64,000 nt of DNA, taken from Turbatrix aceti. Lineage: Eukaryota; Nematoda; Chromadorea; Rhabditida; Panagrolaimidae. How positions within the stretch are numbered: the stretch's first letter is position 1; each line of letters begins with the position of its first letter. The stretch is taken from contig OZ017768.1 in the NCBI GenBank assembly GCA_963969345.1, forward strand, positions 9,650,193 to 9,714,192, written 5' to 3'. The translations under genes and the position numbers were made by a program. Positions 45,358 to 62,875 of the stretch are shown here, one piece after another. The notes under the pieces were generated by a model that searched no databases, was not told the DNA's origin, and worked only from the letters and a program-made list of their open reading frames with translations.

Positions 45358-46500
45358 TCATAATCCCGACAGGATCGCTCGCGACCACCTGATCGTTTCG
45401 CTGACCATAAGTCGTTTCATCAGGATCGCAAAGAACTGATTACATTTATGTAAGAAAATAATGGTGAAAAAATTCACCGCACAAAATGTAAAACAATTCG
45501 AGCAAAGAGATTTTTTGGGAAACATAGTCACTCGGGGAAAGAGAGATTTCAAGGGTTTGCAGAGATAAGAAGAGCCTACGACGAATGCATCGCAGAAGAC
45601 GTCAGTGAAGCCTTGATCTTTCAGCTTTTCGACGATGCCGGCGTACTTGTTCTTTTTCTCTAGCCTTGCAGCAGCGAATCCGCCCTGGTTGCCATCGAAG
45701 CAGACGGTGACATCCACGATGGTAACCGCCTTGTTTGCGTGATCAAGAATGACGATGTCCGGTCGGAGAGCACTGTCGCAGCCGCATTTCTGCCATAAAG
45801 CCAGCATGCTGTTGTCTAGTTTGATGGGGACGTCGTGACGTTGGGGAATGTGCCGAAGCCCGTAGGGATGTCGAGGTGTTGGTACGATTCGTCCTTGAGC
45901 AGCGTTCTGATGTTCGTTGATGGCGAACTGGGTGGCTGGACCCTGAGTCCGCTGATGCCGATGTGCGATGAAGCACATTTACGGGCATTGAACTCGAGTC
46001 CTGCCCTCTTTGCGACGTCGTAGATGGCGTTGAGCTGCGTTTGAAAGTTTTCTGGCGTTTCCGCCAGAAGGACGAGGTCGTCGGCAAATGCGATGACGTC
46101 TTGAAAGGTGTCGTGGGCGAAAACGCCGAGTTTCAGCTGCCGAACGACCCTTATCACGGGCTCGAGCGTCAGGTTGAAGACGATCGGCGAAAGCGGGCAG
46201 CAGCCCTGCTTGACTCCTCGGTTGATCGGGATCGGCGACGTCGTGCCGCGCAGTGTGTTGATTTGAGTCGAGCAACCGTCGTACAGCCATCAAACCGACG
46301 CTTTGCTCATGCCGACGATGACATCGTGCGGCACACTACCAAAAGCGTTGCGCAGGTCAAACCAGGCGATGCATCGGTGCGCACGACCTGGCGTTTTTGA
46401 TGACGGAATGAACAAAGTTGTGCTCGAGTAGATCGTGCATGCTGGTCGGTCGCAATAACAGCGAGCCGCGTGTAATGAGTTTTTGAAGCTAAAAAAATTA
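45358..46500 (-). pseudogene. Decayed R2-superfamily retrotransposon fragment B (reverse transcriptase middle plus endonuclease)
   Basis: Read on the minus strand this resembles the intact element at 48943. It has the catalytic block around CIAWFDLRNAFGSVPHDVI, then FAHDTFQDVIAFADDLVLL, then after an internal deletion LRPDIVILDHANKAVTIVDV of the restriction-like endonuclease and ILMKRLMVSETIRWSR at the C-terminus. The frame shifts several times, and unrelated AT-rich sequence interrupts the endonuclease end. It is a dead copy of the same family but not of the intact copy next door, because substitutions are frequent. Confidence 0.85.
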
Positions 46501-46743
46501 AATGAAAAAAAACACGGAAAGTTACAAAATTGAACCAACGACACAAAAATAAGCGCGACATAAAAAGTGAAAATAACAAACATTGCAGTGAGAATTTAGG
46601 AAAAAGAATTTTTTCCAATTTTTTCTTTCGCTTCGAAAGACAACAGGCTCATTGTAAAAACATACGAGTGCGTGCGCCGACAATAAAGATAAGAAAAAAC
46701 AGCACTATATTAGTAATTTACAAAAATAACGCCTTGCAGAAAC

Positions 46744-47530
46744 AAAATAAACCGATAAGAACAAATTAACTTTATTCGCCGTTTCAATGAGTCGTATCTT
46801 TGGGGTCCATCCAGTTGAGGACGTAGAGGAAGGTGGCATGTGAAATTCTGCCAACATAGTGCAGCTTTCAATATGTGTGTAGGTGGCAAGCGGGTTTGAT
46901 GGCAGCTCGGAGGACAAAGTTGTGCTCCAAGCCACTTTCGTAAAGGCGAAAGCATTTCTGGGCGGCGAGAGACGATGATTTCGCTCTGCCCATCCAAGAC
47001 TGATGACAAGATCTTGCCCATCGTGTCGCTCAGCGCAATCGGTCGCCAGTTCGATAGATCCTGAACGTCTTCTTTCTTGTAGATGAGGATCGTGGATGAT
47101 AGTTTCCACGACCCTGTGACGTACTTCAGGCGACGACAGGCGTTGAATATGGCAGCCAACAGGGTGCAGGACGGGTCGAGGGCGCGCCACTGACTGAGCT
47201 TATCGGATGCCGTCCGGTCTGGGCCGCGTTGGAGACTCGTTGCAGACGCCCAAAGATCTCGTCAGCGGAGAACGGCTTATCCAGGGGTTCGGGATCGTCC
47301 GGGTCGTCGTAGTCGATAGGGAGTGGAGGTGGCGGACGCTCTGCGGAGGTCGAGGGTCTAGAGTCGAAAGATCCTTCGTAGTGCTGGTGGACACAGGGAA
47401 TGTCCACTTCGCAATGCTCTCGGAAAGCTTTCTTGGAGTTCAGCCGGTAGAGCTTTTGGATGCGGCGCGCTTCGGCGGTATCGAATTCTGGCCCCGATCG
47501 TCTCCGGCGTCTTCTCAGGTTGTGGTTTCA
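46744..47530 (-). pseudogene. Decayed R2-superfamily retrotransposon fragment A with U2-like 3' junction
   Basis: On the minus strand: RIQKLYRLNSKKAFREH, a proline-rich linker, and the start of the reverse transcriptase (STILIYKKEDVQDLSNWRPIALSDTMGKILSS). An abrupt internal deletion then leads to the 3' end AATAAAGTTAAT, followed by TTGTTCTTATCGGTTTA. The last stretch is almost the same U2 snRNA sequence that follows the intact element (CTGTTCTTATCGGTTTA at 52859), so this copy also ended in U2 sequence. Confidence 0.8.
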
Positions 47531-48119: not shown

Positions 48120-48907
48120 AGCAGGTGATCCAAAACATGACTACAACTGGACAAACTTAATTCCGGATTTACATCATGAGTCATGACTAAAGACTAAAGA
48201 CTAACCCTTTATACCTTTATATTTGGAATGTCAAATATATGAAGCCGTTTGAATGGGGATGTACGTGTTACACTAATGTCATAAATTTAAGGGTGCAGGT
48301 GATTCATGCAACTTTTGCAAAAACGACCAGTGTTAAATTCTGACAGTATATTAGTATGATCAATTTTTTTTTACATTTATGGTTTATTGCAATGTACCAA
48401 AATCATACTATATTTGTCAGTGGTGTCACGGCACTCGAAAACTAGTCGCATGACATCAGATATAAAACGGGACCGCAGTGATCACTCATGTTGGTCAGGT
48501 TCTGGAGGGTAGGGTAAATTCAACGTCGAAATGAATTCTGCTATATCCTATTGATTAATTTGGCTTTTTTGTGTCGGTGCCCTGAACAGTGAGTGACCTC
48601 CCTGCGAGAAGGCAGCTGTTGCGCGATGCGCAGTGTTGGGGGCGGTGCGCGCGGGCGCACCACTATTGTACTTATGCGTGCGTGTTCGGATGTTTCGTGT
48701 CGAACAGGGTATGCCTCAACACGTGCATTCGCGTGTTTCTCGTTAATCGAGGGTTGCACGAGCACTAAAGCAACGACGGGACGCCCGACGAGAGGGGAAT
48801 GAAGTCGAGAAAGAGCGTTTTTCTTTCGTTTCCTTCGCGGTTTCTTGGATTCAAACGCGGTTTCCGACCCTCTAGGCATATTACGTGAAGCCTAAAATGC
48901 CTTAGGT
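48120..48907. other. Upstream region of the U2 snRNA gene
   Basis: No protein gene is supported. If the U2 locus was ever active, its proximal sequence element should lie about 50-70 bases before 48908, but I could not identify one. A GC-richer stretch (48590-48880) directly precedes it. Confidence 0.4.
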
Positions 48908-48942
48908 ATCGCTTCTCGGCCTCTTGGCTAAGATCAAAGTGT
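48908..48942 (+). ncRNA. U2 spliceosomal RNA gene, 5' part (interrupted)
   Basis: ATCGCTTCTCGGCCTCTTGG, then CTAAGATCAAAGTG, is the 5' stem-loop I region of U2. Sequence identity stops at the GTG before the branch-site-recognition GUAGUA. The remainder of the RNA is at 52857-53003, beyond a 3.9-kb retrotransposon. Because the branch-site-pairing bases are split or lost, this copy cannot make a normal U2. Confidence 0.92.
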
Positions 48943-48996
48943 TGCGTTACTCTCCCCGACGACTTCCACATCAATCAGAAGGCTACGAATCAAAAA

Positions 48997-51900
48997 ATGC
49001 AATCAGAATCGACGAGGGACAACGAGCACAGAGAGAGCGATCAGACAACGCGCACACCCATCTTCGCTTCGGGACCGTCAGCCATCATCGCACTCTGCCC
49101 GCTGCCGCTTGACCTACGACCAGTCTGTCCACTATGCGGGCGCAATCCTGAGGGTTTTATCAACTGGGGCGGCCTGACGCGTCACATCAAAACCTACCAC
49201 GCAACCTCTACCGTCAGCTTCCAGTGCAAGGAGTGCAATCATCCCGACAAAGACCAGAAGGCAGTCAACAGACATTGGGCGAAAGTTCACAACAGCGGTG
49301 TCCGTCCTCCTACGAAGGGTCAGGTAAGTCGTCAGAATACGGTAAGCGCTTCTTCTTCGGCCCGCAGCTCTGCTGCCCCCCCTTCTCCCCCCTCTGGGGC
49401 TTCCAGGCCAAGAACAACGACGACAAGAAGCGCGCGCAGAAACGATGGCCCGAGAAACCGTAATCCTCAGGTAAGTCACCCTTTACCCGGCATCTCTGCC
49501 GGGCCTAACCCACCCTGTAGGTCAACGGATCCGGTGCCATTCGCTGCCCAGCCACCAACAATGACATCTGCCCCATCCACGACAACGACGACAAGAAGCA
49601 CGCGCAGAATCGATGGCCCGGGAAACCGTAATCCCCAGGTAAGTCACCCCTTGCCCGGCATTTCTGCTGGGCCTAACCTCCCCTGTAGGTCAACGGACCC
49701 GGTACCATTCACTGCCCAGCCGCCTGCAATAACACCTGCTCCATCCGCGACGATTCCGCCACCGACGATCCCGACAATTGCGACACTCAATCGTTCCGGT
49801 AATCTCAGCCCGACGGGCTCTTCTTCAGCTTTCAGGATCGACGACGATGACATTCCTCTTGACGATCAGTGCCAATCTTCCCAAGCCGAGCCAGCTTCGC
49901 GTTCACAGCAGCCGGCGCGCCCCATGCTGCCTAACCTGTCAGGTTGGGTTGAGCGGTTCAACGCCATCACCAGCGCTGAGGAGTTGGAAGACGCGCTCAC
50001 CGAACTCACGGCCGAGCTTCCATGCCGTCCTCGACGACCAATGCGACGGCCACGACCCAGGACGCCCGACAACGAAGCAGCTGAGGCCAAACGACTCCAA
50101 TCTCTCTACCGTCGCAATCGGAAAGCTGCCATGCGAGAGGCTCTCGGCACGAAATCTGCCCAATGCGAAATCGAGGTAGGCGAGTTGCAACGTTGTTTTT
50201 CAGCCACGCTTGCCACTCCCGTTGTTCATCGGGATGCTGAACTTCCTCCAGTCACTCCTGACTTTGATGAGGCTCCCGACGACGCCGACCCGCTCTCGCC
50301 CATTTTCACGCCCGAGGAAGTCAAGGCCCGTCTTCAACGCTGCACCGACACCTCGCCCGGCCCGGACGGAATCGGCTACAGCGTGTGGAAGCGAGTCGAT
50401 CGCTCGGCGACTCTTCCATGCGCCATCTTCAACGCCGTCCGGCGGACTCGTCACATCCCTTCAACCTGGAAGAAGTCAACGACGATCCTGCTCTTCAAGA
50501 AGGGTGACCCAGAGGCGACAGACAGCTGGCGTCCGATCAGTCTGAGCGACACCATTGGTAAGTTGTTCTCATCCATTTTAGCTGCTCGCCTGTCGTCCTG
50601 GGCCACACGAAATGGGCGTCTGTCGCCCTGTCAAAAGGGTTTCACGAGCCACGAAGGTGCACTGGAGCACAACTTTGTGGTGCAAGCAGTCATCAAGAAC
50701 GCCCGGAGGTCGCACACCGAGGCAGCCATCGCCTGGCTTGACCTACGCAACGCTTTTGGCAGTGTGCCGCACGACGTCATTTTTGACACGTTGCGGTGGC
50801 ATGGCCTGAGTGAAGCGTCGGTCCGATGGGTCCGATGGCTGTACGACGGTTGCACGACCGAGATCAACACGCTGCGCGGCACGACATCGCCGATCCCGAT
50901 CAACCGCGGGGTCAAGCAGGGCTGTCCGCTCTCACCGATCGTCTTCAATTTGACGCTGGAGCCCGTGATCAGAGCCGTCCGGCAGCTGGAACTCGGCGTC
51001 TTCGCCCACGACACGTTCCAGGACGTGCTCGCCTTCGCCGACGACCTCGTCCTTCTGGCGGAAACGCCAGAAAACCTTCAAACGCAGCTGAACACCATCT
51101 ACGACGTCGCAAAGTGGGCAGGACTCGAGTTCAATGCCCGAAAATGTGCTTCATTGCACATCGACGGCAGCGGACATCGGGTCCAGCCCACCCAATTCGC
51201 CATCAACAACGAAAACATCAGAACGCTGCTCAAGGACGAGTCGTACCAGCATCTCGGCGTCCCCACGGGCTTCGGCACCTTCCCCAGCGCCACGGCGGCC
51301 ATCGACAGTATCAACGACGACCTTATCAAACTCGACAATAGCCTTCTGGCTCCGTGGCAGAAATGCGACGCCGTGAACACCTTCTTGGTGCCGCGGCTCT
51401 CATTTCACCTAAAGCTGGGGTCAGTGCCGAAGACGCCCCTCAAGTTGATCGACAAGACGATCCGTCGCCTGGGCAAGAAGTGGCTCTACCTGCCTCAACC
51501 AGCAAGCCCTGAGCTGCTGTACCTTCCCCTACAGGCAGGGGGAGTCAACTTTTTCCCGACCGCACCCCTTGCCGACATTTCCAATGTCGTCCAGGGGTTT
51601 CGACTCGCGACGTCGCCTGACTCCTCAGTTGCCGCGATGGCAACAACCGCTCTGCGCGCTGTCGTCAAGAAACGCGTCCGCCAGCCTCCAACTCAAAACA
51701 TGATCATCGACTACCTCAACGGCTCGACGGATGCGGTCTTCGGGCGGTCAACTGACATCGGTTCGATGTGGACGGCTGTCCGGACGTCTACCACCCAGCT
51801 TCGGAAGAAGATCGACGTCCGATGGCGCTACAGCGGACCCGCGCTCCAGCTTGTCATCGGCGGCAACTCGGCGTTCCGGAAAGAGGCGGAACGGCAGCTA

Positions 51901-52650
51901 CGACACGCCGTCAGGACTCAGCTCTACACGGCTCTCAGCAAAAAGCCTGAACAAGGTAAGGTTTTGGGTGTAACGGGGGCGGCCACTTGCAGCAACCACT
52001 TCCTCCGAGCCGGCAGCTTCACGCGCTTCGCCGAATGGCGCTTCATCCACCGCGCGCGGCTCGGCGTGCTTCCTCTCAACGGCAGCCGACGACATGGGCC
52101 TGGCAACAACACCGCCTGCCGCCGATGTGGCTTTGCCTACGAATCGGCGGCGCACGTGTTGAACCACTGCAGGCCTTCTCTCTGCACGATGACCAAGCGT
52201 CACAATGCAGTGCTGGAGCGTCTACAGAAGGCAACACGTCTTCCGGAAGGCGTCCAGACCTACGCCAACCAGCCCATACCAGGCTTCGACTCCTCGCTGC
52301 GGCCAGACTGGGTCATTCTCGACGACGCAAAGAAGGAAGCCACCATCATCGACGTCACCATTCCGTACGAGAATGGACCCGGAGCCTTTCTCTCGGCAAG
52401 ACGAGAGAAAGTGCGGAAGTACGACGCCCTGGCCCAGCACTTCCGAGACCGAGGATATGACGTCTTCAACGACGCCTTCATCGTCGGATCCCTTGGCGGC
52501 TACGATTCGCTGAACCGGTTTGTTCTACAGCGACTTGGAATACCACCAGGGTACGCGATTTTAATGAAACGGCTGATGGTTAGCGAGACCATCAGGTGGT
52601 CGCGCGACATCTACGTGGAGCACGTCTCTGGCATCCGCCAGTACTCGTGA
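48997..52650 (+). CDS. Retrotransposon protein: zinc fingers, reverse transcriptase, restriction-like endonuclease
   Basis: This is an intact 1217-residue frame. Two CCHH zinc fingers are at residues about 45-90 (CPLCGRN...H...H and CKECNHP...H...H). A proline/serine-rich linker with an internal duplication follows (HPLPGISAGPN occurs twice). Next is RLQSLYRRNRKAAMREAL, a word typical of the region before the R2-type enzyme. The reverse transcriptase shows DSWRPISLSDTIGKLFS, WLDLRNAFGSVPHD, QGCPLSP and the catalytic FADD (about 683). The C-terminus has the CRRCGF...H..NHC knuckle and a PD-(D/E)XK nuclease core in LRPDWVILDDAKKEATIIDV. No cysteine protease domain of the NeSL-1 type is seen. 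It should nick the U2 gene and copy its RNA there. Confidence 0.93.
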   Translation: MQSESTRDNEHRESDQTTRTPIFASGPSAIIALCPLPLDLRPVCPLCGRNPEGFINWGGLTRHIKTYHATSTVSFQCKECNHPDKDQKAVNRHWAKVHNSGVRPPTKGQVSRQNTVSASSSARSSAAPPSPPSGASRPRTTTTRSARRNDGPRNRNPQVSHPLPGISAGPNPPCRSTDPVPFAAQPPTMTSAPSTTTTTRSTRRIDGPGNRNPQVSHPLPGISAGPNLPCRSTDPVPFTAQPPAITPAPSATIPPPTIPTIATLNRSGNLSPTGSSSAFRIDDDDIPLDDQCQSSQAEPASRSQQPARPMLPNLSGWVERFNAITSAEELEDALTELTAELPCRPRRPMRRPRPRTPDNEAAEAKRLQSLYRRNRKAAMREALGTKSAQCEIEVGELQRCFSATLATPVVHRDAELPPVTPDFDEAPDDADPLSPIFTPEEVKARLQRCTDTSPGPDGIGYSVWKRVDRSATLPCAIFNAVRRTRHIPSTWKKSTTILLFKKGDPEATDSWRPISLSDTIGKLFSSILAARLSSWATRNGRLSPCQKGFTSHEGALEHNFVVQAVIKNARRSHTEAAIAWLDLRNAFGSVPHDVIFDTLRWHGLSEASVRWVRWLYDGCTTEINTLRGTTSPIPINRGVKQGCPLSPIVFNLTLEPVIRAVRQLELGVFAHDTFQDVLAFADDLVLLAETPENLQTQLNTIYDVAKWAGLEFNARKCASLHIDGSGHRVQPTQFAINNENIRTLLKDESYQHLGVPTGFGTFPSATAAIDSINDDLIKLDNSLLAPWQKCDAVNTFLVPRLSFHLKLGSVPKTPLKLIDKTIRRLGKKWLYLPQPASPELLYLPLQAGGVNFFPTAPLADISNVVQGFRLATSPDSSVAAMATTALRAVVKKRVRQPPTQNMIIDYLNGSTDAVFGRSTDIGSMWTAVRTSTTQLRKKIDVRWRYSGPALQLVIGGNSAFRKEAERQLRHAVRTQLYTALSKKPEQGKVLGVTGAATCSNHFLRAGSFTRFAEWRFIHRARLGVLPLNGSRRHGPGNNTACRRCGFAYESAAHVLNHCRPSLCTMTKRHNAVLERLQKATRLPEGVQTYANQPIPGFDSSLRPDWVILDDAKKEATIIDVTIPYENGPGAFLSARREKVRKYDALAQHFRDRGYDVFNDAFIVGSLGGYDSLNRFVLQRLGIPPGYAILMKRLMVSETIRWSRDIYVEHVSGIRQYS
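49440..49750 (+). repeat. Internal tandem duplication in the retrotransposon N-terminal linker
   Basis: A unit of about 170 bp is present twice in frame (49466-49560 and 49632-49725 contain the closest matches), encoding GNRNPQVSHPLPGISAGPN-like segments. Each unit begins with CAGGTAAGTC and has CTGTAG about 50 bases later, so it mimics an intron. Confidence 0.85.
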
Positions 52651-52856
52651 TCCACATCCATAAACTCGTCACACCCCAACGGCGTCATGCGATCTCAAGA
52701 AGCCTGGTTGAGTTACCCTTTTACCTTGTGCCCTCTTTTTCCAAAAAATTGTACGGTGTTCTATTTAACTCTCCCCGCTCTCTTGCTTCTCTCTCTTTTG
52801 TTTTGTTTGTCCTTTTTGCACGAACATGTTTCGTGAAGCATTCTCTAATAAAGTTA

Positions 52857-53003
52857 ATCTGTTCTTATCGGTTTAACCCCCGGTACGATATCTATTGATA
52901 TCATGGAGGTTATCAAATTTTTGGAACCTGATTGGTTGCAGGAGCTTGCTCCTCGCCAGTCGCGGGTCGACCCGGTATTGCACCTACCTCCGGGAACGGC
53001 CCA
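52857..53003 (+). ncRNA. U2 spliceosomal RNA gene, 3' part (interrupted)
   Basis: The sequence starts at ATCTGTTCTTATCGGTTTAA and runs through stem-loop II, the Sm site AAATTTTTGGA (about 52916), GGAGCTTGCTCC of stem-loop III and GGTCGACCCGGTATTGCA of stem-loop IV to GGGAACGGCCCA. With the 35 bases at 48908 the RNA would total about 182 bases, near the normal U2 length. It is a nematode-like U2 in the region after stem-loop II. Confidence 0.92.
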
Positions 53004-54483
53004 TCCCCTCCGGGGGAACCATTTAAAACAATTTGCCCTGAGGTTAAACCTCAAGTTCGGGATACACCCCAACTTAAGGTCAAAATCTCGATTTGCCGAA
53101 CCTGACATCTAACTCGCCGCTCACAAGCATTGTTTGTGCTGCTGCTTGTTGTTATCACAAGTTTGAAATTCGTACCATACTTTTTAATCACTGAATTACA
53201 CATAATTATCAAATAGACACTAACAAACAATAATTTTGTAATCAGTAAAAATTCCGATTTTCTTAACTTACTATAAGGTTTGTGCCTAGTGTCCAATGTC
53301 TTACGTTTCCATATAACGTTTCATACAATATTTGAATCAGTAAGATCTGTTGAAAATCCCATAGTGTTCTGTGATCATATCAGTAAAGCGTTTGAAATTA
53401 TCTGGCCTCTTATCTCTAAAACTCGAAGACAAAAGCCTAAGCAAATATTGTGTTTTGAACTTTTGATTACGATATTTTCTGTTGATAAGGTACATCTTGA
53501 AATTTGCAACAAATTATAATTTACAAAAAAAATATTAATTTTGAGCAATGTTACAATTTTTTTAAATAAAAGTTGGCAAAAATGCATATCACAATCCCTT
53601 TGGCTAAAAGTTGCGTCTGAGGGGTATCTACACGTATGCCAAAGCACAAATGTCGTACTCAATAAGGAACGGAGTCTATAGGTGATAACGATTTTCTTTG
53701 AAAAACTTGTAATATTTATTGCTCAAAATGTTTTTTTCCCGTTGCAATATTTGGCGTAAGTTTCCGATATCTGACTAAACCTGATATCAGAAAAACACTA
53801 GTTGTGCCCGCGGGCTAATTTTTGCATTTTTGGAATCAGCGGGTCCGAATTAGTATATCAGGACACGTTTTAGGACGATCTGAGAGTTGGCACTGATCTT
53901 CAGTTCTGCCTTGACAAAAAAACGGATCTAACGATAATCGCAAGCACGCCGCATGCTCTTGTGTAAACGTTTTCGCAGCGTACCGCTGTGCCGTCGTTGT
54001 CTGCTCACTATACTTACCGCTTTCTGGGTCACACACCGTTTGAGCGAGTGCTTACGCCACTAAAAAGTCAACTGCAAATAACAGATCCGTGCGCACTCGA
54101 GTGCATGAATGAATTCATCGCAAATGAAAAGCGGAAGTGTCTGTTCATGGTTTAGACAACAAGTTCTGAAAACGACTAACTGTTTCTCAGTATTCACGAA
54201 TTTTGTTTTCTAAAAAAATAAAATCAGAGTACATGCTGATTAATTAGTCAAATAAACATAGAAGTAAAAAATATATCCCCAGTGGTCTCATCATCGGTAT
54301 GCGCCAATTATCCCCTTTCATTAATGATAACATGATGTTGTTGACGCTTCCAATTCGTATCATGCCATTTTTATGGAAGCAAAAAAAATTGCCACAAGAT
54401 ATCGCCTTTTAAAAACATGTTAATGACTAGTTGAGCTCACAGTTGAGGCTTTGCCATCTGCGGAACTCCGGTGAAACTCAAAA
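53004..54483. other. Intergenic region between the U2 locus and receptor gene 2
   Basis: No supported gene. A U-rich or box-type 3' end signal for U2 should lie just after 53003 but is not recognised. The rest is AT-rich. Confidence 0.4.
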
Positions 54484-55045: not shown

Positions 55046-58000
55046 ATGTCCGCTAGTGGGTCTATTCGTCGCCAATTAGGGCTTGAAATCCCCAGCGCGA
55101 AGCGAGTCATTGACCAATACAGTGCGCTAAAAGCTACCGCGGCCCAGCTACAGCAGTTGACCAAGGCACAGCTAGAAAAGCACGTGACGGATCTGCAAAA
55201 GGTCATAAAACGCCTGGAAGCACGCCAAACGGTCATGAATGGATACAAACAACAGTGGATGGAGTTGTATCAGCGCCTGGATACCGATGACGCCCGTGCA
55301 AAAGAAGATGCAGAATTCGACAAGCACACGGCGACAGACGGCTCTCTCGACATACTTGTAACTCTCCAACAAGCTATCGAGGGCGCATCGGAACAACTGG
55401 ACGACGCACAGCGACTGTATCACCCCCCTGTCGAACCCGAGTACATGCGACCGCAGAAAATTAAAATTCCTAAATTTTCCGGTGGCGCCGACAAATATTT
55501 GATTTTTTGGGATATTTTTTCTATCATGATTGACCAGACGGCTATGACTACTCTTGAAAAAGTCACGCATCTGACGGCAGCACTGGACGGTACGGCAAAA
55601 GACGCGGTAAAACACATTCGTCCGCATGCAGCTAACTACGAACTCATTAAATCAACCCTCAAAGAGAAATTTGGGAACGAGGATGATCGTATGAGACAAC
55701 TACATGCGATTTTGACCCGGCCGGTCCACGCTAAAACCGCCGAAGAAGTGCGCACCGCTTTTGATCGATTCCGTGCAGCTGTTTTTGAACTAACCGCGAT
55801 GAATCGCACTCCTGATGTTTATTTGACCCAAACATTGCTCCGCAACATGCTACCCGAGTGGGCACGTACCCAATTATTCTTGTACCGGAATATTACGGCA
55901 AACATGGCGCTCGACGACTTGTTTCCGGCAGTTCACGCTATATTGAAGACTGCCGTGGAAAACAGCAAAACGCTGGAGCCCGCCAAAACCGCAGCTCAGA
56001 AAGGGGCAAAGAAGGAAAACACTGATACTGTGGCAGCAGTCACTCAGTCGCAATCCCCTCAAGCTGCTAACAAAACGCCAATTGGTATTTGCGTTTTCTG
56101 TGATAAAAAGCACAACTCAGCTCAATGTCGTACGGTTACTACTTATGCAGCTCGTCAACAGGTTGCAAAGGACAAAAAGCTGTGTTTCAAATGCTTGAAA
56201 AGTGATCACTTGTATTCTGAATGCCGAAAGAAAATCACTTGCGCTCGTTGTTCACATAGTCACAACACAGCGTTTTGCAAGCAGGACGCAGTTGTTGCTG
56301 CTGTTACGCCGCTGCCGATGCCCCGTATGCAACCACCGGAAAACATTGTTTCCGCTACGGCCGCGCCTGTGCAAAGCAACGCAGTTTTGCTCAACACTCG
56401 AAAAGCTCCGGTGTACGGATCCGAAGGAATGCACAACATGCTCATCTTCTTCGATGATGGCAGTACGTCGACTTTCATTCGAAATGAAGACGCTAAAATC
56501 TTGCAACTAAGACCCTATGACACATGCAAGCTGACTACAGGAGTTTTTGGCAAAGACAAGGCAACATTGCAACGTGAATGCCCTATGTACAAGGTGGCAA
56601 TCCGCGCCCAAAACAATGATGTACTATGCATCACAGCACTGGGTATTGACCACATTACGCCACCGCTCGCAACCTTGACCAAGAACCCAGAAGAGCTGAT
56701 CAACGCCATGGGTACTGAAGTCCTTCAAGTTGAAGGCCAAGTTCCTCAAATTTTGATTGGCAGCGATCAACGCGCACAATTTTTCTGTGGTCGCAGCTAT
56801 CGTTTCCGAGAAAACCTTACGGTTCAAGACACTCGCATCGGCCCGGTCATTCATGGTCCAACTACTGCCGAATTCGTTGGCGCGGCTACTGCTGTTAATC
56901 TTACGGCAACTGTTGCTCCCAGTCTAGGGACATGGATCGAAGACGTCACAGCTCTCGACGCTATCGGAATTCCAGACAGTCCGCTAGCCAACGAACAACA
57001 GATGGCCAAAGAACATTTCACCGAAACGGCAAAGGTACTCGATCTCGAAGACGCTCGTATTCAAGTCTCATTACCATTCGTGGACCGCGAAAATGTTCCT
57101 CCGAACTTTCACAACTGTCAGAAACGTCTGGAGCAATTGTACCGGAAGCTTGAACGTGATAACTCTCTACAAGCGTGCCAAGCAATCATTGACGAGCAAC
57201 TTCGTGCCAAAATCATTGAAGAAGTACCCGCAGCCGAACTATTGAAGGAAGGACGGCACTATTTGCCTATTCGAATTGTGTCTACACCGACGAAAACTAC
57301 CACAAAAGTCCGTATGACTTTGGATGCGTCCACACGTGCCGGAAACGGTGCCAAGAGCTTGAATGATTGCCTACTCAGTGGTAAACCGGTGTTCGCTAAA
57401 CTGACCGATATTTTGCTCGACTCTAGATGTCATCCTATCGTCGTTACTTCGGATCTGGAAAAAGCCTTTCTGCAGCTCGAACTGGATCCAGACGACAGAG
57501 ACTTTGTTCGATTTTTGTGGCCGCGAGATTTGACATCACCACCTACAGGTGACAATATTGTCCATTATCGGTTCCTACGATTGCCGTTTGGTGTCAGTTC
57601 TTCACCCATGCTACTTTTGTACTCACTTGATTTGCTGATGGAAAAAATGGGTGAAGCGGATCCAGCCATTCGTCCGTATACTGACGAACTACGGCGCAAA
57701 ATCTACGTTGACAACTGCCTACAAGGATCCGACAATGCAGAACAAGCTATCTTGAAAGCCGAAGCTGCTCGGACACTTTTCGCACGTGTGCACATGAATT
57801 TGCGCGAATTTGCGAGTAATTCGTCAATCGTAAATGATCATTTTGGTACGTCGATCGAATGCATGAAACTACTTGGTATTACCTGGAATCTGCTGAACGA
57901 TACGTACTTGATCGGTTGGCGCAACCGCGAATTACCTCCTGCGACAAAACGTAGCCTCGTTTCACTACAACACGAAGTATTTGACCCGCTTGGATTAATC

Positions 58001-61000
58001 TGTCCCGCCGTGCTCCCGATTGTTCTGCAAGCCCAGCAGCTTTGGAAAAAAGGGTACGATTGGGACAAGAACGTTGACGCTGTGATTTACAACGAAATCG
58101 CCACTCTCGTTGCCGAACGTGAAGGACAATCTATCAGTGTTTCTCGTTACCCATTTGTCACCTGCGACGGAAGCACGTACGACTTGCATGTGTTTTGCGA
58201 CGCCTCAGGCAAAGCATACGGCGCCGCGGCATACATCGTACAAACTACACCGCAAGGTAAACGATCGGCATTGGTATTTGCAAAAAGCCGCGCGGTTCCG
58301 TTGACTCCACAACTGACTATTTGTCGCTTGGAATTGGTAGCTACTGCACTCGCTGGACAGATCACACGGTATTTGATCACCGCACTACCCTTTCCCATAC
58401 GGCGACAATTCATTTGGACGGATTCTACGACTGTACTACACTGGATACGCAGTGGCGAAGATAGCAACCGTTTTGTCAACAATCGCATTCGCAAACTCGA
58501 AGAAGTTGCTGCAAGTATTCGGTACGTACCTACTGCGATCAATCCTGCAGACGTTGCAAGTCGAGGATATAGCCCACGCGAATTGCGCGATCATCCGTTA
58601 TGGTGGAATGGACCGGCATTTCTGTGCAGCGATGACGAAGAATCGGACTGGCCTAGCAACCCAGCATCATCGACAAACGCTATCGGCGTTTACGCACAAG
58701 TCCAACCACCACTATCGACACCGGATGCGCCACAGCAGCCGTTTATTCCAATTACGGCTAGCAGTTGGATGACACTCATGATGCACATCGTGGTTTTAAT
58801 AAAATTCATTTACCACTGCAGTGAAACAGCGCGACGTTACTTGCCCAAGTCCAACGACAAAGCGGAATGGTTCCAAGCTGCCGAAAATTTCGCGTTGAGA
58901 CAAGCGCAAAGTCAAACGCCGCTTTCGACCGCCGAATATAAAACACTAGATGTTTTCGTCGACGAAGATGGTATTCAGCGACGCCGTACTCGGATTAAGT
59001 CTACCGATGGACATTGGCATGAACCCATTCTGCTACAATGGACGCGAGAAGTGGAACTGCTTATCTTGCATTTGCACAACATCCTCTGTCACGCCGGCGT
59101 CAATGCAGTGGTCAACGCCTTCCGCGCACGATTTACTATGCGTAAACTTCGGTCCGCGGTACAGTCTGTTATACGACAACAATGCCTGATTTGTCGCAGA
59201 TATCGTGCAAAGCCCTTTGCCTTACCGCCAATGCCGTTATTGCCTACTGAACGAGTGACGATGGCCCCTCCATTTGCCCACACCGGCCTCGACTACTGCG
59301 GACCGTTCACCATACGTCTTGCCGACGGCCCTCAAAAGGCGTGGGTATCGTTGTGGACGTGTCTGGTCACCAGAGCAGTGCACCTGGAAATGGTATTCGA
59401 TGCATCTACTGAGCAGTTTTTATTGGCATATCGCAGATTTGTTAGTCGACGCGGTCGCCCTCTTTCCGTGTTATCGGACAATGCCTCTATCTTCAAGACT
59501 GGACGTGACGTCATTCTGAAGACGCAAACCGCACTGGCACTCGACAAGACTCGTTGGCGGTTTATTACCGAACGCGCACCCTGGCATGGCGGTGTCTACG
59601 AACGTATTATCGGTGTGGTGAAGAAAGCGCTGAAACATGCTATTGGCCGCCGCATTTTACACGCCACAGAATTCCAGACGGTGCTCACGGAAACTGAATT
59701 CGTTGTCAACTGTCGGCCACTAGTACAGGCAAACGACGACGATGATCAAGTTTTACGGCCTATCGACTTCCTTCTTCCAGATGGTATTGCGGAAGCCCCT
59801 GTTGTTCGACCATTTGACGATGCGGAAGATCCAGACTACGTGCCTACAGTGTCGACAAGTGACGGGCTCTTACGACGTTGGCAACGCTTGCAGACAGTCA
59901 TTGACAAATTTCGCGTGCTGTGGCAACAACAATACCTCACGACTCTCCGAGACCGTATTGACCACCACGCTAAAGATGGAGCGGCACATTTTCGGCGACC
60001 GGAGGTGGGCGAAGTTGTCATCATCGAAAGTGAAGACAATTCACCCAAAGAGAACTGGAAGTTGGGAAAAATCGACGCGCTACAGCCAAGCAGTGATGGA
60101 GAAGTCCGAACAGTTATTGTCAAAACGGCTAATCACACTACTCTGAGACGATCCGTAAAGCACGTTTACCCTCTGGAAGTTCGGAACGAAGACTGTGGAC
60201 GAAAAAGAAACGTGCATTTGACGCCAGCTAAGACTATTATTGCTGCAATGATTCTGGCTATGACGATATCGTTGACGCATGGAGCCGAATGTGGCGAAAA
60301 GGCTGAAAAATTACCATGTTACCACGCGCCTAATTGCATGAACAGCGGATACGGAATATTCTTGGGTCAAGAGCTATGCTGGAAATTGTTGACGTGCCCT
60401 AAAGACAAGCATTGGCAGATGGGTCTCGGTTGCACAAAACCCTGCGAATGTCCTGAATGGTCGCATGGATGTTCTTTTGTCGAAGGCAGCGCCACTAAAA
60501 ATTCGACGACACGCAACGTCGAGGTGTTACGCATGCTACGAGAAAGCGAAGTAACTGATTGTTCGTTTCAACCTGATCCCACTTGTGCCGAAGAACCATC
60601 TGAAGGGAGCTTTCACATGATCCAACTATTCGACGGAAGCAAGCATCTTGTCAGAGAACTTCACCTCGAACACCGAGAAGTTCACGAAGACTCGATCATC
60701 TGCAAAGGCACCGGAGAAGTCGATGGCCCTCCAGAGTATTGCGCGCATCACGATTGTCACAGCGGCAACCACACAAGTCCCAGAATTTGCGTACCTTTCC
60801 CCCACGAATTGGTATTGTGGAAAACTCGCAATGTAGGCGTAGCGGTGAAGGCATGGGGTCTAGTGAAAAAGATATTCCACAAGCGATTGGAAACTCTACC
60901 TACTAAAGTTTACCTGATCAAATGTCGAGATGGCACAGTGTCGGTCGAAGGTGCAGAGATCCATGATCGAATCGAGATCACCATGAGAAAATGGACTTTT

Positions 61001-62875
61001 CTAATCCAGGCCAAGGAAATTGCGGAATTCAAACTACCCCGACCATTCCAAGCCAGTGATGAACGAGCCGACGTACGAATTACGCGTCATGGCAACGTCG
61101 TTCACCGAGAACAAGTAAATTGTTCCGCCATTGACTGGTGCGAGCAGATAACTTGTTATTGGTGCGCCGAACTCCTGGCCAACTACAAGTGCACCACTTG
61201 GGCGACATTCGCTATCGCCGCGACGATGGTTGGCATTATTCTCGGACTCCTGTCGTTTTTATGTTATCGCCGGACAACCAGGAAACGATTGGAAGTCACG
61301 CTACATGATGTGCGAAAGAAAGATGATGACTACTCCGCTGAAGAAGGAAAAAGTCAATGGCGTTACGAACGACGACGTCCAGACACGTATAAGATGCTGC
61401 CACTTTTATTAGCTGTGTTACTACAACCACTATTGGTGTCAACTTGCTCGGTGACGGACACATTCACAGCCGAGGCTCACGAGTGCACCATCAACGTTGG
61501 AGGTTTCAAGAAGTGCACGATCAGCAAGTCATTGTCAGTCACTCTGACTGAACTTGACGAAGCTTGCATCACTATACAAGACGACATGGCAAAACCGTTG
61601 ATGAATATCCAAATTGCGGCTACGGTTGTCCGAAGATGTCAAACAAATACATTGATGTTCACGCGACCTGTATCTATCAACGTCGTGTCGAACAAACGTT
61701 GCGCATCAGCAGGGTCATGCACTGGATCTACGTGTGCAGACGTCCTACCAACCACTCGATTGAATGAATTTGCCGCATACCAGGACTTCCCCGGATTTAC
61801 CGGCTGCCTGGAGTCCTGTGGATGTTGGGGTTGCGGTTGTTTCTTGTGCAGCTCAGCGTGCTTATTCTATCGTGTAATCGCCAAACCGATACACCCGACA
61901 GTGGAAATCTACGATTGCCCGGTATGGATTGAACGAACTATTGTTACGGTTTCCATGATAACGGCGCATGGTACTAATGCCGAAGAATTCGAACTAGAAA
62001 ATGGTCAAAACATCGAATTGGGCCGAGCCAAATTCAAGGTCGTGCGGATAACACCTACCATGGAAGTCGATCCCACGAAATTGGTTTTTATAACCGACGG
62101 AGAAAAAACGGCGACTATTTCGGAACAAGGCATCGCTGCGTCAAAGGTATTCGAGTGCCCTTCACGCGAACACTCCGACAGCGGTAACTGTACGCTTAAC
62201 ACAGCTGCATGTTTCTGTCAATCTGGTGGTGAAGCAGTACATTGCGCTTGCCGTGATAACCAGCTCCTGACGCACGAATTGCAGACTCATTCACTGCCGA
62301 TAAGCCTATCAACCCTTACTCTGCGAAACAACAAGGCCGAAGTGTTCTACACTATCCCCGCTACCGTTGATTTAAGCATCGAATTGGCTCAGATGCAAGC
62401 CGCGGTGCAAGTAGATTCCAATTCTTGCTCGGTCGAAGACGCCGTGGTTAAAGGATGCGCGAACTGCGTGGCTGGTGCCAAGACCACCATCAGTTGTCAA
62501 ACCAACTTCGGCAAGACATTGGCGTATTTCGAGTGCCCCGACGATGTACGATTCAGTGTGGTGTGTTCCGCAGCCGGCAGCAACTCAGAAGTACGGCTAG
62601 CCATTCCCCGCACGACCGTCAACTATCGCTGCAACGTCACTTGTCCGGCATCGAAGACGACCATGGTCATTCGAGGAGACTTGATGTACGTTGTAAAAGA
62701 TCCGGTCACCTCGGACACGCTGGAACCAGTCCTGGACTCACGCGGGGACCACGCGGCATCGTTTGTGCAGACGGCGTTATCCTTCCTGCAGAAAATCAAC
62801 GAGACGAGCCGCACGTTGACCCTCATTTTTTGTAGCATTGTTTTTGTAATTGTTTTAGTAATTCGTAAATTGTAA
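55046..62875 (+). CDS. BEL/Pao gag-pol-env polyprotein (single frame)
   Basis: 2609 residues without a stop. Approximate positions: Gag with coiled N-terminus and KIPKFSGG (about 1-340); Cys-His knuckles (349-415); aspartic protease with FFDDGSTSTF (470); reverse transcriptase (about 720-950) with SDLEKAFLQLELD, LPFGVSSSP and YVDN as the YVDD equivalent; RNase H (1045-1185) with CDASGKAYG, WTDSTTVLHW and NPADVASRG; integrase (1335-1600) with an H-H-C-C finger and DDE residues in GLDYCGP, SDNAS and the Glu of GGVYERI; then an envelope-like region (about 1720-2609). The last has hydrophobic segments near 1729-1748, 2053-2076 and 2118-2133 and a final anchor (2590-2609), with many paired cysteines. 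Its layout resembles phlebovirus-type Gn/Gc glycoproteins known from nematode BEL elements. Whether it functions is unknown. Confidence 0.94.
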   Translation: MSASGSIRRQLGLEIPSAKRVIDQYSALKATAAQLQQLTKAQLEKHVTDLQKVIKRLEARQTVMNGYKQQWMELYQRLDTDDARAKEDAEFDKHTATDGSLDILVTLQQAIEGASEQLDDAQRLYHPPVEPEYMRPQKIKIPKFSGGADKYLIFWDIFSIMIDQTAMTTLEKVTHLTAALDGTAKDAVKHIRPHAANYELIKSTLKEKFGNEDDRMRQLHAILTRPVHAKTAEEVRTAFDRFRAAVFELTAMNRTPDVYLTQTLLRNMLPEWARTQLFLYRNITANMALDDLFPAVHAILKTAVENSKTLEPAKTAAQKGAKKENTDTVAAVTQSQSPQAANKTPIGICVFCDKKHNSAQCRTVTTYAARQQVAKDKKLCFKCLKSDHLYSECRKKITCARCSHSHNTAFCKQDAVVAAVTPLPMPRMQPPENIVSATAAPVQSNAVLLNTRKAPVYGSEGMHNMLIFFDDGSTSTFIRNEDAKILQLRPYDTCKLTTGVFGKDKATLQRECPMYKVAIRAQNNDVLCITALGIDHITPPLATLTKNPEELINAMGTEVLQVEGQVPQILIGSDQRAQFFCGRSYRFRENLTVQDTRIGPVIHGPTTAEFVGAATAVNLTATVAPSLGTWIEDVTALDAIGIPDSPLANEQQMAKEHFTETAKVLDLEDARIQVSLPFVDRENVPPNFHNCQKRLEQLYRKLERDNSLQACQAIIDEQLRAKIIEEVPAAELLKEGRHYLPIRIVSTPTKTTTKVRMTLDASTRAGNGAKSLNDCLLSGKPVFAKLTDILLDSRCHPIVVTSDLEKAFLQLELDPDDRDFVRFLWPRDLTSPPTGDNIVHYRFLRLPFGVSSSPMLLLYSLDLLMEKMGEADPAIRPYTDELRRKIYVDNCLQGSDNAEQAILKAEAARTLFARVHMNLREFASNSSIVNDHFGTSIECMKLLGITWNLLNDTYLIGWRNRELPPATKRSLVSLQHEVFDPLGLICPAVLPIVLQAQQLWKKGYDWDKNVDAVIYNEIATLVAEREGQSISVSRYPFVTCDGSTYDLHVFCDASGKAYGAAAYIVQTTPQGKRSALVFAKSRAVPLTPQLTICRLELVATALAGQITRYLITALPFPIRRQFIWTDSTTVLHWIRSGEDSNRFVNNRIRKLEEVAASIRYVPTAINPADVASRGYSPRELRDHPLWWNGPAFLCSDDEESDWPSNPASSTNAIGVYAQVQPPLSTPDAPQQPFIPITASSWMTLMMHIVVLIKFIYHCSETARRYLPKSNDKAEWFQAAENFALRQAQSQTPLSTAEYKTLDVFVDEDGIQRRRTRIKSTDGHWHEPILLQWTREVELLILHLHNILCHAGVNAVVNAFRARFTMRKLRSAVQSVIRQQCLICRRYRAKPFALPPMPLLPTERVTMAPPFAHTGLDYCGPFTIRLADGPQKAWVSLWTCLVTRAVHLEMVFDASTEQFLLAYRRFVSRRGRPLSVLSDNASIFKTGRDVILKTQTALALDKTRWRFITERAPWHGGVYERIIGVVKKALKHAIGRRILHATEFQTVLTETEFVVNCRPLVQANDDDDQVLRPIDFLLPDGIAEAPVVRPFDDAEDPDYVPTVSTSDGLLRRWQRLQTVIDKFRVLWQQQYLTTLRDRIDHHAKDGAAHFRRPEVGEVVIIESEDNSPKENWKLGKIDALQPSSDGEVRTVIVKTANHTTLRRSVKHVYPLEVRNEDCGRKRNVHLTPAKTIIAAMILAMTISLTHGAECGEKAEKLPCYHAPNCMNSGYGIFLGQELCWKLLTCPKDKHWQMGLGCTKPCECPEWSHGCSFVEGSATKNSTTRNVEVLRMLRESEVTDCSFQPDPTCAEEPSEGSFHMIQLFDGSKHLVRELHLEHREVHEDSIICKGTGEVDGPPEYCAHHDCHSGNHTSPRICVPFPHELVLWKTRNVGVAVKAWGLVKKIFHKRLETLPTKVYLIKCRDGTVSVEGAEIHDRIEITMRKWTFLIQAKEIAEFKLPRPFQASDERADVRITRHGNVVHREQVNCSAIDWCEQITCYWCAELLANYKCTTWATFAIAATMVGIILGLLSFLCYRRTTRKRLEVTLHDVRKKDDDYSAEEGKSQWRYERRRPDTYKMLPLLLAVLLQPLLVSTCSVTDTFTAEAHECTINVGGFKKCTISKSLSVTLTELDEACITIQDDMAKPLMNIQIAATVVRRCQTNTLMFTRPVSINVVSNKRCASAGSCTGSTCADVLPTTRLNEFAAYQDFPGFTGCLESCGCWGCGCFLCSSACLFYRVIAKPIHPTVEIYDCPVWIERTIVTVSMITAHGTNAEEFELENGQNIELGRAKFKVVRITPTMEVDPTKLVFITDGEKTATISEQGIAASKVFECPSREHSDSGNCTLNTAACFCQSGGEAVHCACRDNQLLTHELQTHSLPISLSTLTLRNNKAEVFYTIPATVDLSIELAQMQAAVQVDSNSCSVEDAVVKGCANCVAGAKTTISCQTNFGKTLAYFECPDDVRFSVVCSAAGSNSEVRLAIPRTTVNYRCNVTCPASKTTMVIRGDLMYVVKDPVTSDTLEPVLDSRGDHAASFVQTALSFLQKINETSRTLTLIFCSIVFVIVLVIRKL

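Follow-up and report, generated by a model that had tools for sequence, protein, structure and literature searches.

A Utopia-like retrotransposon in a U2 small nuclear RNA gene of the nematode Turbatrix aceti

The stretch analysed here, a 64,000-nucleotide window of the Turbatrix aceti genome (C4:9650193-9714192; 59.9 Mb in 28 contigs in total), contains a U2 small nuclear RNA (snRNA) gene interrupted by a non-long-terminal-repeat (non-LTR) retrotransposon lying in sense orientation relative to U2. U2 starts at 48908 and its first 35 bases end ...GATCAAAGTGT, after which the element starts with TGCGTTACTC...; after 3,914 bp the element ends ...AATAAAGTTA and U2 picks up with ATCTGTTCTTATC, the 3′ junction of this copy having a one-A ambiguity (52857). 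The right part was matched by the Rfam U2 model (93.7 bits, E 1.9e-17, cut-off 46), the match beginning at 52824, inside the element, because the model aligns element bases too. The left part scored under the cut-off (31 bits, E 2e-4) and is identical over its 35 nt to intact U2 genes of the same genome. The flanking RNA is thus U2, as a first-pass annotation of the window had proposed, and the coordinates and domain calls of that annotation proved correct (Table 1).

The element encodes a single open reading frame (ORF) of 1217 codons, in which zinc fingers, a reverse transcriptase (RT) and a PD-(D/E)XK restriction-like endonuclease (RLE) had been read at first pass and were recovered here from the ORF itself, a Pfam RVT_1 match (E 7.5e-31), motifs and alignment with R2 proteins. 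R2 retrotransposon proteins were also the nearest proteins of solved structure (E 3e-68). The zinc fingers were called by motif, their Pfam matches being under cut-off. The Pfam scan returned no RNase H, protease or apurinic (AP) endonuclease (PF03372) match for the element protein. The Myb domains of R2 are divergent; no Myb was found among the Pfam matches of the element protein up to E 10, and a divergent Myb could escape a sequence profile. Two 168-bp repeats in the linker (49414-49751, + strand) are in frame, and nearby GTAAGT...TAG stretches look like short introns.

Table 1 Features of the interrupted U2 locus and its surroundings (positions within the window)
Feature	Position	Strand	Evidence
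Class-A U2 gene upstream region, candidate promoter	48697-48907	+	87-88% identity to four other class-A U2 upstream regions
U2 snRNA nt 1-35, left half of disrupted gene	48908-48942	+	Same as intact C1int and C2int through ...AAAGTGT
U2-targeted non-LTR retrotransposon, 3,914 bp	48943-52856	+	Filled/empty comparisons at two other loci; window copy shares both junctions
Single ORF, 1217 codons	48997-52650	+	ORF list; C1 copy one residue different
CCHH zinc finger 1, residues 44-68	49126-49200	+	Motif scan; weak alignment with R2 N-terminal fingers
CCHH zinc finger 2, residues 77-98	49225-49290	+	Motif scan
Two head-to-tail 168-bp repeats (88%), linker between fingers and RT	49414-49751	+	Self matches
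RT domain, residues 502-755, FADD at 680-683	50500-51261	+	RVT_1 107.9 bits, cut-off 29.6
C-terminal CCHC finger, residues 1041-1058	52117-52170	+	Motif; alignment with R2 proteins
PD-(D/E)XK RLE core: PD at residue 1103, IIDVT, REKVRKY ending at residue 1142	52303-52422	+	Alignment with R2 endonuclease regions 9dou, 9nl3, 9nl2; pattern
AATAAA at extreme 3′ end of element	52847-52852	+	Sequence
U2 snRNA from ATCTG to 3′ end, right half of disrupted gene	52857-53009	+	Rfam RF00004; junction common to 4/4 preserved 3′ ends
Decayed pieces of older related elements, ~2 kb upstream of intact copy	45373-47491	-	60-81% DNA identity where alignable
Relic of older 3′ junction: last ~10 bp of element and ~19 bp of U2	46748-46776	-	Same junction, one mismatch in 29

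Genome-wide counts given here are search-based lower bounds for repeats. An 18-base U2 5′-half pattern, allowing up to two mismatches, identified 17 sites (10 with the reversed control); of these, 12 have one mismatch and are U2, and the other five, with two, are taken as chance; a 3′-half pattern identified 12 exact sites and six more at three mismatches (control 9), one of the six being the relic at 46748-46776. Eight U2 genes are intact, two of class A (C1int and C2int) and six of class B (L001, L002 and L005-L008), and at least four are disrupted. U2 5′ halves run into the element at four places (the window locus on C4, C1:10.136 Mb, C2:1.112 Mb and C2:1.787 Mb, the last keeping only about 25 nt of U2), and U2 3′ halves follow it at four (C4, C1, C2:1.112 Mb and C2:1.792 Mb). 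The 3′ junction reads ...AGTTA/ATCTG in all four preserved 3′ ends (C4, C1, C2:1112 kb and C2:1792 kb), which meet U2 at one and the same base, and none of the random flanks that would have spoken against a U2-specific element was encountered at these ends. The 5′ junction ...AAAGTGT/ is common to the two full copies and the C2:1.112 Mb stub; the piece at C2:1.787 Mb joins two bases earlier. Used as a query, the last 461 bp of the element (to 52860) returned seven pieces, each belonging to one of these loci or to the older copy that lies upstream within the window, and the first 457 bp returned the two full copies only. Of 37 matches from a protein search of the genome, 29 are RTs at 28-31% identity, five are relatives that have diverged or decayed, and the other three are the copies on C4, on C1 and at C2:1.792 Mb. 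In the C2:1.792 Mb copy about 2.2 kb of other DNA interrupts the 3′ part of U2, which breaks off at C2:1792270 and continues at C2:1790098. The description of the element as intact is borne out by the two full copies, whose frames are both intact and one residue apart, and such a pair suggests that the element may be active.

We consider it very likely that the element is a U2-specific non-LTR retrotransposon of the Utopia type that encodes an RLE and was mobile recently. The RT tree agrees with Utopia, and so do the position of the junction and the order of the domains. Utopia was defined by Kojima and Jurka in 2015 (PMC4640811) and comprises low-copy RLE-type elements having one ORF with N-terminal fingers, RT, a C-terminal finger and RLE, inserted in U2 such that the 3′ flank begins at human U2 nt 38/39. 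Here the 3′ junction is constant at this same position in all four preserved ends and in one relic; alignment with R2 endonucleases and the motif identify the endonuclease as PD-(D/E)XK, not AP; and the single ORF has two N-terminal fingers (Utopia having one to three) followed by RT, one C-terminal finger and RLE. Absence of a Myb domain has also been used as a criterion for Utopia (PMC13188248). The element differs in its new host and in that Pfam matched neither RNase H nor a protease.

The host is a nematode, since the exact SL1-type leader GGTTTAATTACCCAAGTTTGAG is followed by the splice donor GTAAAC in all six SL1-like loci read, the 43 Rfam SL1 matches all being under cut-off; the closest of nine matches to an arrestin-like host protein were from Halicephalobus (56%) and Panagrellus (58% over 74%), which puts the host close to the panagrolaimids. 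SL1-like matches in C6:3376694-3393239 are spaced about 1,644 bp apart in a tandem array. The first-pass reader knew of no nematode example of a U2-specific Utopia element, which is contradicted by the two nematode hosts already reported in PMC4640811, Trichinella spiralis and Pristionchus pacificus. Utopia-1_PPac from P. pacificus is without a protease, as here, whereas Utopia-1_TSP from T. spiralis, compared by description only, has an Ulp1-like protease. By titles and passages within one open library we recognised no later description of a nematode U2 element. The element is therefore a nematode addition to an already known kind of retrotransposon.

To classify the element by its RT, relatives were collected with residues 770-1217 as query, which returned 196 proteins, the best 120 being considered; a search seeded in the N-terminal 500 residues gave 15. 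Of these 135 proteins, 119 had enough RT coverage for alignment, 15 were dropped for coverage and one had no RT match; together with the window element, fam2 (a second family of the same genome) and three R2 references the alignment has 124 rows, and the tree 70, named hosts and the nearest unnamed proteins being preferred. Relatives among the best 120 came from Plectus (55%), Panagrolaimus, Globodera, scorpion, insects and turtles, and none were found in viral contigs. The window element groups with fam2 (100/98), then with Panagrolaimus (97/86), then with Plectus and scorpions (95/83); a wider group adds Globodera, Dendroctonus and turtles (94/91), insect elements adjoin it, and the three R2 references lie with five distant proteins beyond a 100/100 branch. 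Certain branches are long and certain forks weakly supported. Pelodiscus as well as Dendroctonus falls in the wider group, and the adjoining insect group contains Camponotus and Lasioglossum; Pelodiscus sinensis, Dendroctonus ponderosae, Camponotus floridanus and another Lasioglossum are Utopia hosts (PMC4640811). The tree supports, without proving, Utopia by descent, its rows bearing no Utopia, NeSL, R4 or CRE label and R2 being the sole labelled outgroup. The Utopia-like target proposed at first pass proved correct.

Descent from a spliced-leader (SL) type NeSL, or from a different RLE lineage, with an independent switch to U2 would make the element Utopia-like but not Utopia by descent; such an origin appears improbable. 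The relatives listed bear neither Utopia nor NeSL names, Utopia, NeSL and YURE cluster at just 60% bootstrap, and two Utopia/NeSL lineages occur in nematodes (PMC4640811), all of which leave room for such an origin. Against it, the 3′ junction is that of Utopia, hosts or genera listed for Utopia recur in the wider and neighbouring groups of the tree, and no protease was found here or in the seven nematode relatives scanned, in which RT was the only Pfam domain, whereas nematode NeSL has one (PMC4640811). NeSL, close kin to and derived from Utopia, shares with the element the RLE type and nematode hosts but targets the SL exon and encodes a protease (PMC4640811); neither SL-exon insertion nor an N-terminal Ulp1-like protease, the two strict marks of NeSL, was found. 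Keno has the same U2 3′ junction (PMC4640811) but an apurinic-type endonuclease in place of the RLE, PF03372 being unmatched here. R2 shares the RLE and the RT and finger architecture and gave the best solved-structure matches, but inserts in 28S rDNA and not in U2 and lies across the 100/100 branch; the element protein, for its part, has no Myb match in Pfam.

Pairs of filled and empty loci define the insertion precisely. On C1 a filled and an empty locus 0.85 Mb apart (L010 and L003) are 99.9% identical over 1,163 bp of one flank and 99.8% identical over 925 bp of the other, and AGT alone is missing from the filled one; on C2 the stub and its empty counterpart (L011 and L004), with flanks 98.5% identical over 405 bp and 99.8% over 467 bp and then 84% farther out, show the same three bases missing. 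AGT is lost from the branch-site-recognition region of U2 in both comparisons, which places the break where it had been read at first pass. Arthropod Utopia families have no target duplication and reptile families have 20-bp duplications (PMC4640811); the 3-bp loss differs from both and is a further type of 5′ junction beside those reported for Utopia. The C2 stub is 5′ truncated, and a short U2 fragment in inverted orientation lies at its 5′ junction, an error of the type that would be expected of incomplete reverse transcription.

Between the C4 and C1 copies two positions are changed in the element and one in the U2 halves, against about 14-22% in the flanks: 29 of 211 columns upstream, an end gap among them, and 25 of 114 downstream, including a gap. 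With near-identical elements in diverged flanks, the insertions appear to be more recent than the two U2 loci that hold them. A third copy, at C2:1.792 Mb, is 99.94% identical over 3,225 bp including U2 bases and has 961 codons open. These sequence comparisons indicate that the element moved recently. That the second full copy was made by gene conversion or by duplication from one U2 locus to another, rather than by retrotransposition, seems quite improbable: U2 bodies are homogenised or constrained (C1int and C2int do not differ in any of 190 columns) in diverged flanks and the C1 and C2 U2 loci are themselves duplicated, but the filled and empty C1 loci have nearly identical flanks, and the truncation and inverted U2 piece of the C2 stub fit incomplete reverse transcription and are hard to obtain by conversion.

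Certain points nevertheless count against a recently mobile, U2-specific element of the Utopia type. The C2:1.787 Mb piece is without its 3′ end, and the C2:1.792 Mb copy is without U2 on its left side. Gene conversion between U2 loci could carry the element. Use of the U2 promoter by the element is a prediction, and class-A promoters match the proximal sequence element (PSE) of U1 genes poorly. The clade was placed solely through the hosts named in PMC4640811, the tree having no labelled Utopia or NeSL.

The element could insert and be expressed as follows. Its zinc fingers and RLE would recognise U2 DNA, the bottom strand would be nicked just 5′ of ATCTG, and the element RNA would be copied by reverse transcription primed at this nick. 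If the top strand were nicked 3 nt upstream of the bottom-strand nick, the loss of AGT would be explained. Transcription is predicted to start at the U2 gene's own start and to yield a capped mRNA led by U2 nt 1-35. Downstream of U2 +1 no ATG precedes the ORF start codon at 48997, which lies behind an 89-nt leader, and for this reason the element could use the U2 promoter and the RNA polymerase II cap without a promoter or ribozyme of its own. A ribozyme is known from R2. A hepatitis delta virus (HDV)-like ribozyme at the 5′ end of the element was considered and rejected: no ribozyme family was among the three Rfam matches up to E 5, and only 54 nt separate the junction from the ATG. The word "promoter" does not occur in the text of PMC4640811.

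Kojima and Jurka regard it as poorly understood how such elements persist in a family of about ten genes, and their tables for Phytophthora and Nasonia list more disrupted than intact U2 genes (PMC4640811), the reverse of the ratio found here. The intact genes fall into two classes that differ from each other at 42-49 of 197 columns. The class-A pair has identical bodies (190 of 190 columns) and differs at 27 of 212 upstream and 20 of 100 downstream columns; Rfam U2 scores are 153.9 bits for class A and 125-160 for class B. Of 54 predicted U2 pairs, 10 show pair-keeping double changes, and six pairs of one stem and one more are broken in two rows, which are taken as the class-A rows, the stem case as a one-column alignment shift. 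With the C2:1.787 Mb fragment set aside, the flanks or U2 halves of the disrupted loci assign them all to class A, so that four of six class-A loci are disrupted versus none of six class-B loci (Fisher p 0.03 one-sided, 0.06 two-sided, for loci that are not independent). A PSE model built from U1 genes (five distinct sites of eight genes) gave scores of 20-26 for all six genes of class B, against about 3 for C1int, C2int and C4, the class-A loci to which it was applied; values of -0.3 to 10.2 in all six SL1 genes scored call for caution in reading this difference between classes. The class-A upstream region was found at five places in the genome, all of them class-A U2 including the window locus. 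A mobile cassette carrying U2, suggested by about 210 bp upstream and 110 bp downstream common to class-A loci, was rejected, since the C1 pair and the C2 set have longer shared flanks and the right edge fades; the flanks of the class-A loci suggest duplications of different age, some old and some younger, in which the upstream region has been conserved.

The target site itself varies among intact U2 genes. Class-A genes have ATCAAAGTGTAGTATCTG and the class-B genes C5a and C2b have ATCAATTGTGTAGTATCTG; in C5c and C5d GTAGTA is without its last A, in C5e that base is T, and C5f is changed further. GTAGTA is thereby altered in four of the eight intact genes, and the exact 18 bases of the empty sites are kept solely by the two of class A. 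Over the first 52 alignment columns, seven of 16 target columns are variable versus one of the 36 others (p 6e-4), the 16 having been chosen after the site was seen. The U1 5′ end is unchanged in eight of eight genes.

Repair scars, selected escape and plain drift all fit this variation, and the class-B changes are possibly scars or escape. Probably, though by no means securely, the site differences have nothing to do with the element and class B consists of ordinary U2 variants or decaying genes: with 12 loci only, A and B are two lineages and not 12 independent events, and the poor U1-type PSE scores of all six SL1 genes mean that promoter scores alone do not rank genes. Such an account sits less easily with the concentration of variable columns at the target, in a stretch highly conserved in the Rfam consensus, with the invariant U1 5′ end, and with the retention of promoter and structure by class B. 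The opposing proposal, that the element shaped host U2, is doubtful if conceivable; it would set a class A open to insertion, bearing the exact target and its own promoter, beside a class B with a U1-type promoter and cut-site changes arising from misrepair or blocking insertion, changes in the near-invariant GTAGTA being tolerated through loose branch sites. Titles and opening lines of abstracts on U2 variants or target-site escape from site-specific retrotransposons yielded nothing relevant in what was a weak search and no proof of absence.

One genome of near-chromosome scale provides a census of intact and disrupted U2 genes in two classes, with filled and empty twins and apparently intact copies of the element, and the class split and site variation are reason for further study. 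Were the class-B changes escape or scars, they would show how a host keeps splicing while the element survives, which is testable in a small worm genome, and an RNA gene thought frozen would be evolving under attack by a site-specific parasite. A uniform GTAGTATCTG would then be expected in related nematodes without a U2-targeting element and not in those with one.

A number of further observations concern relatives of the element. fam2 (C1:5870000-5879900, near C1:5.87 Mb; 46% amino acid identity) forms a succession of 5′-truncated copies ending in AATAAATCA; Rfam found no U2 there, and read by eye three 3′ ends seem to be continued by pieces of fam2 itself. The minus strand of C2:1783000-1791500 (L037) holds a mosaic of a U2 5′ fragment, a 94% element piece, a stretch of another family (about 54% amino acid identity) and a 94% piece of the 3′ region, which could be the product of template switching. 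One Macrochelys protein (P0016) has four consecutive endonuclease-domain matches and probably represents several tandem 3′ ends of such an element. Elsewhere in the window, an intact 2609-codon BEL/Pao-type retroelement frame (55046-62875, + strand), scanned in two pieces, matches Peptidase_A17 (E 4.7e-23) and, near its end, a Phlebovirus_G2-like fusion-glycoprotein domain (E 1e-63).

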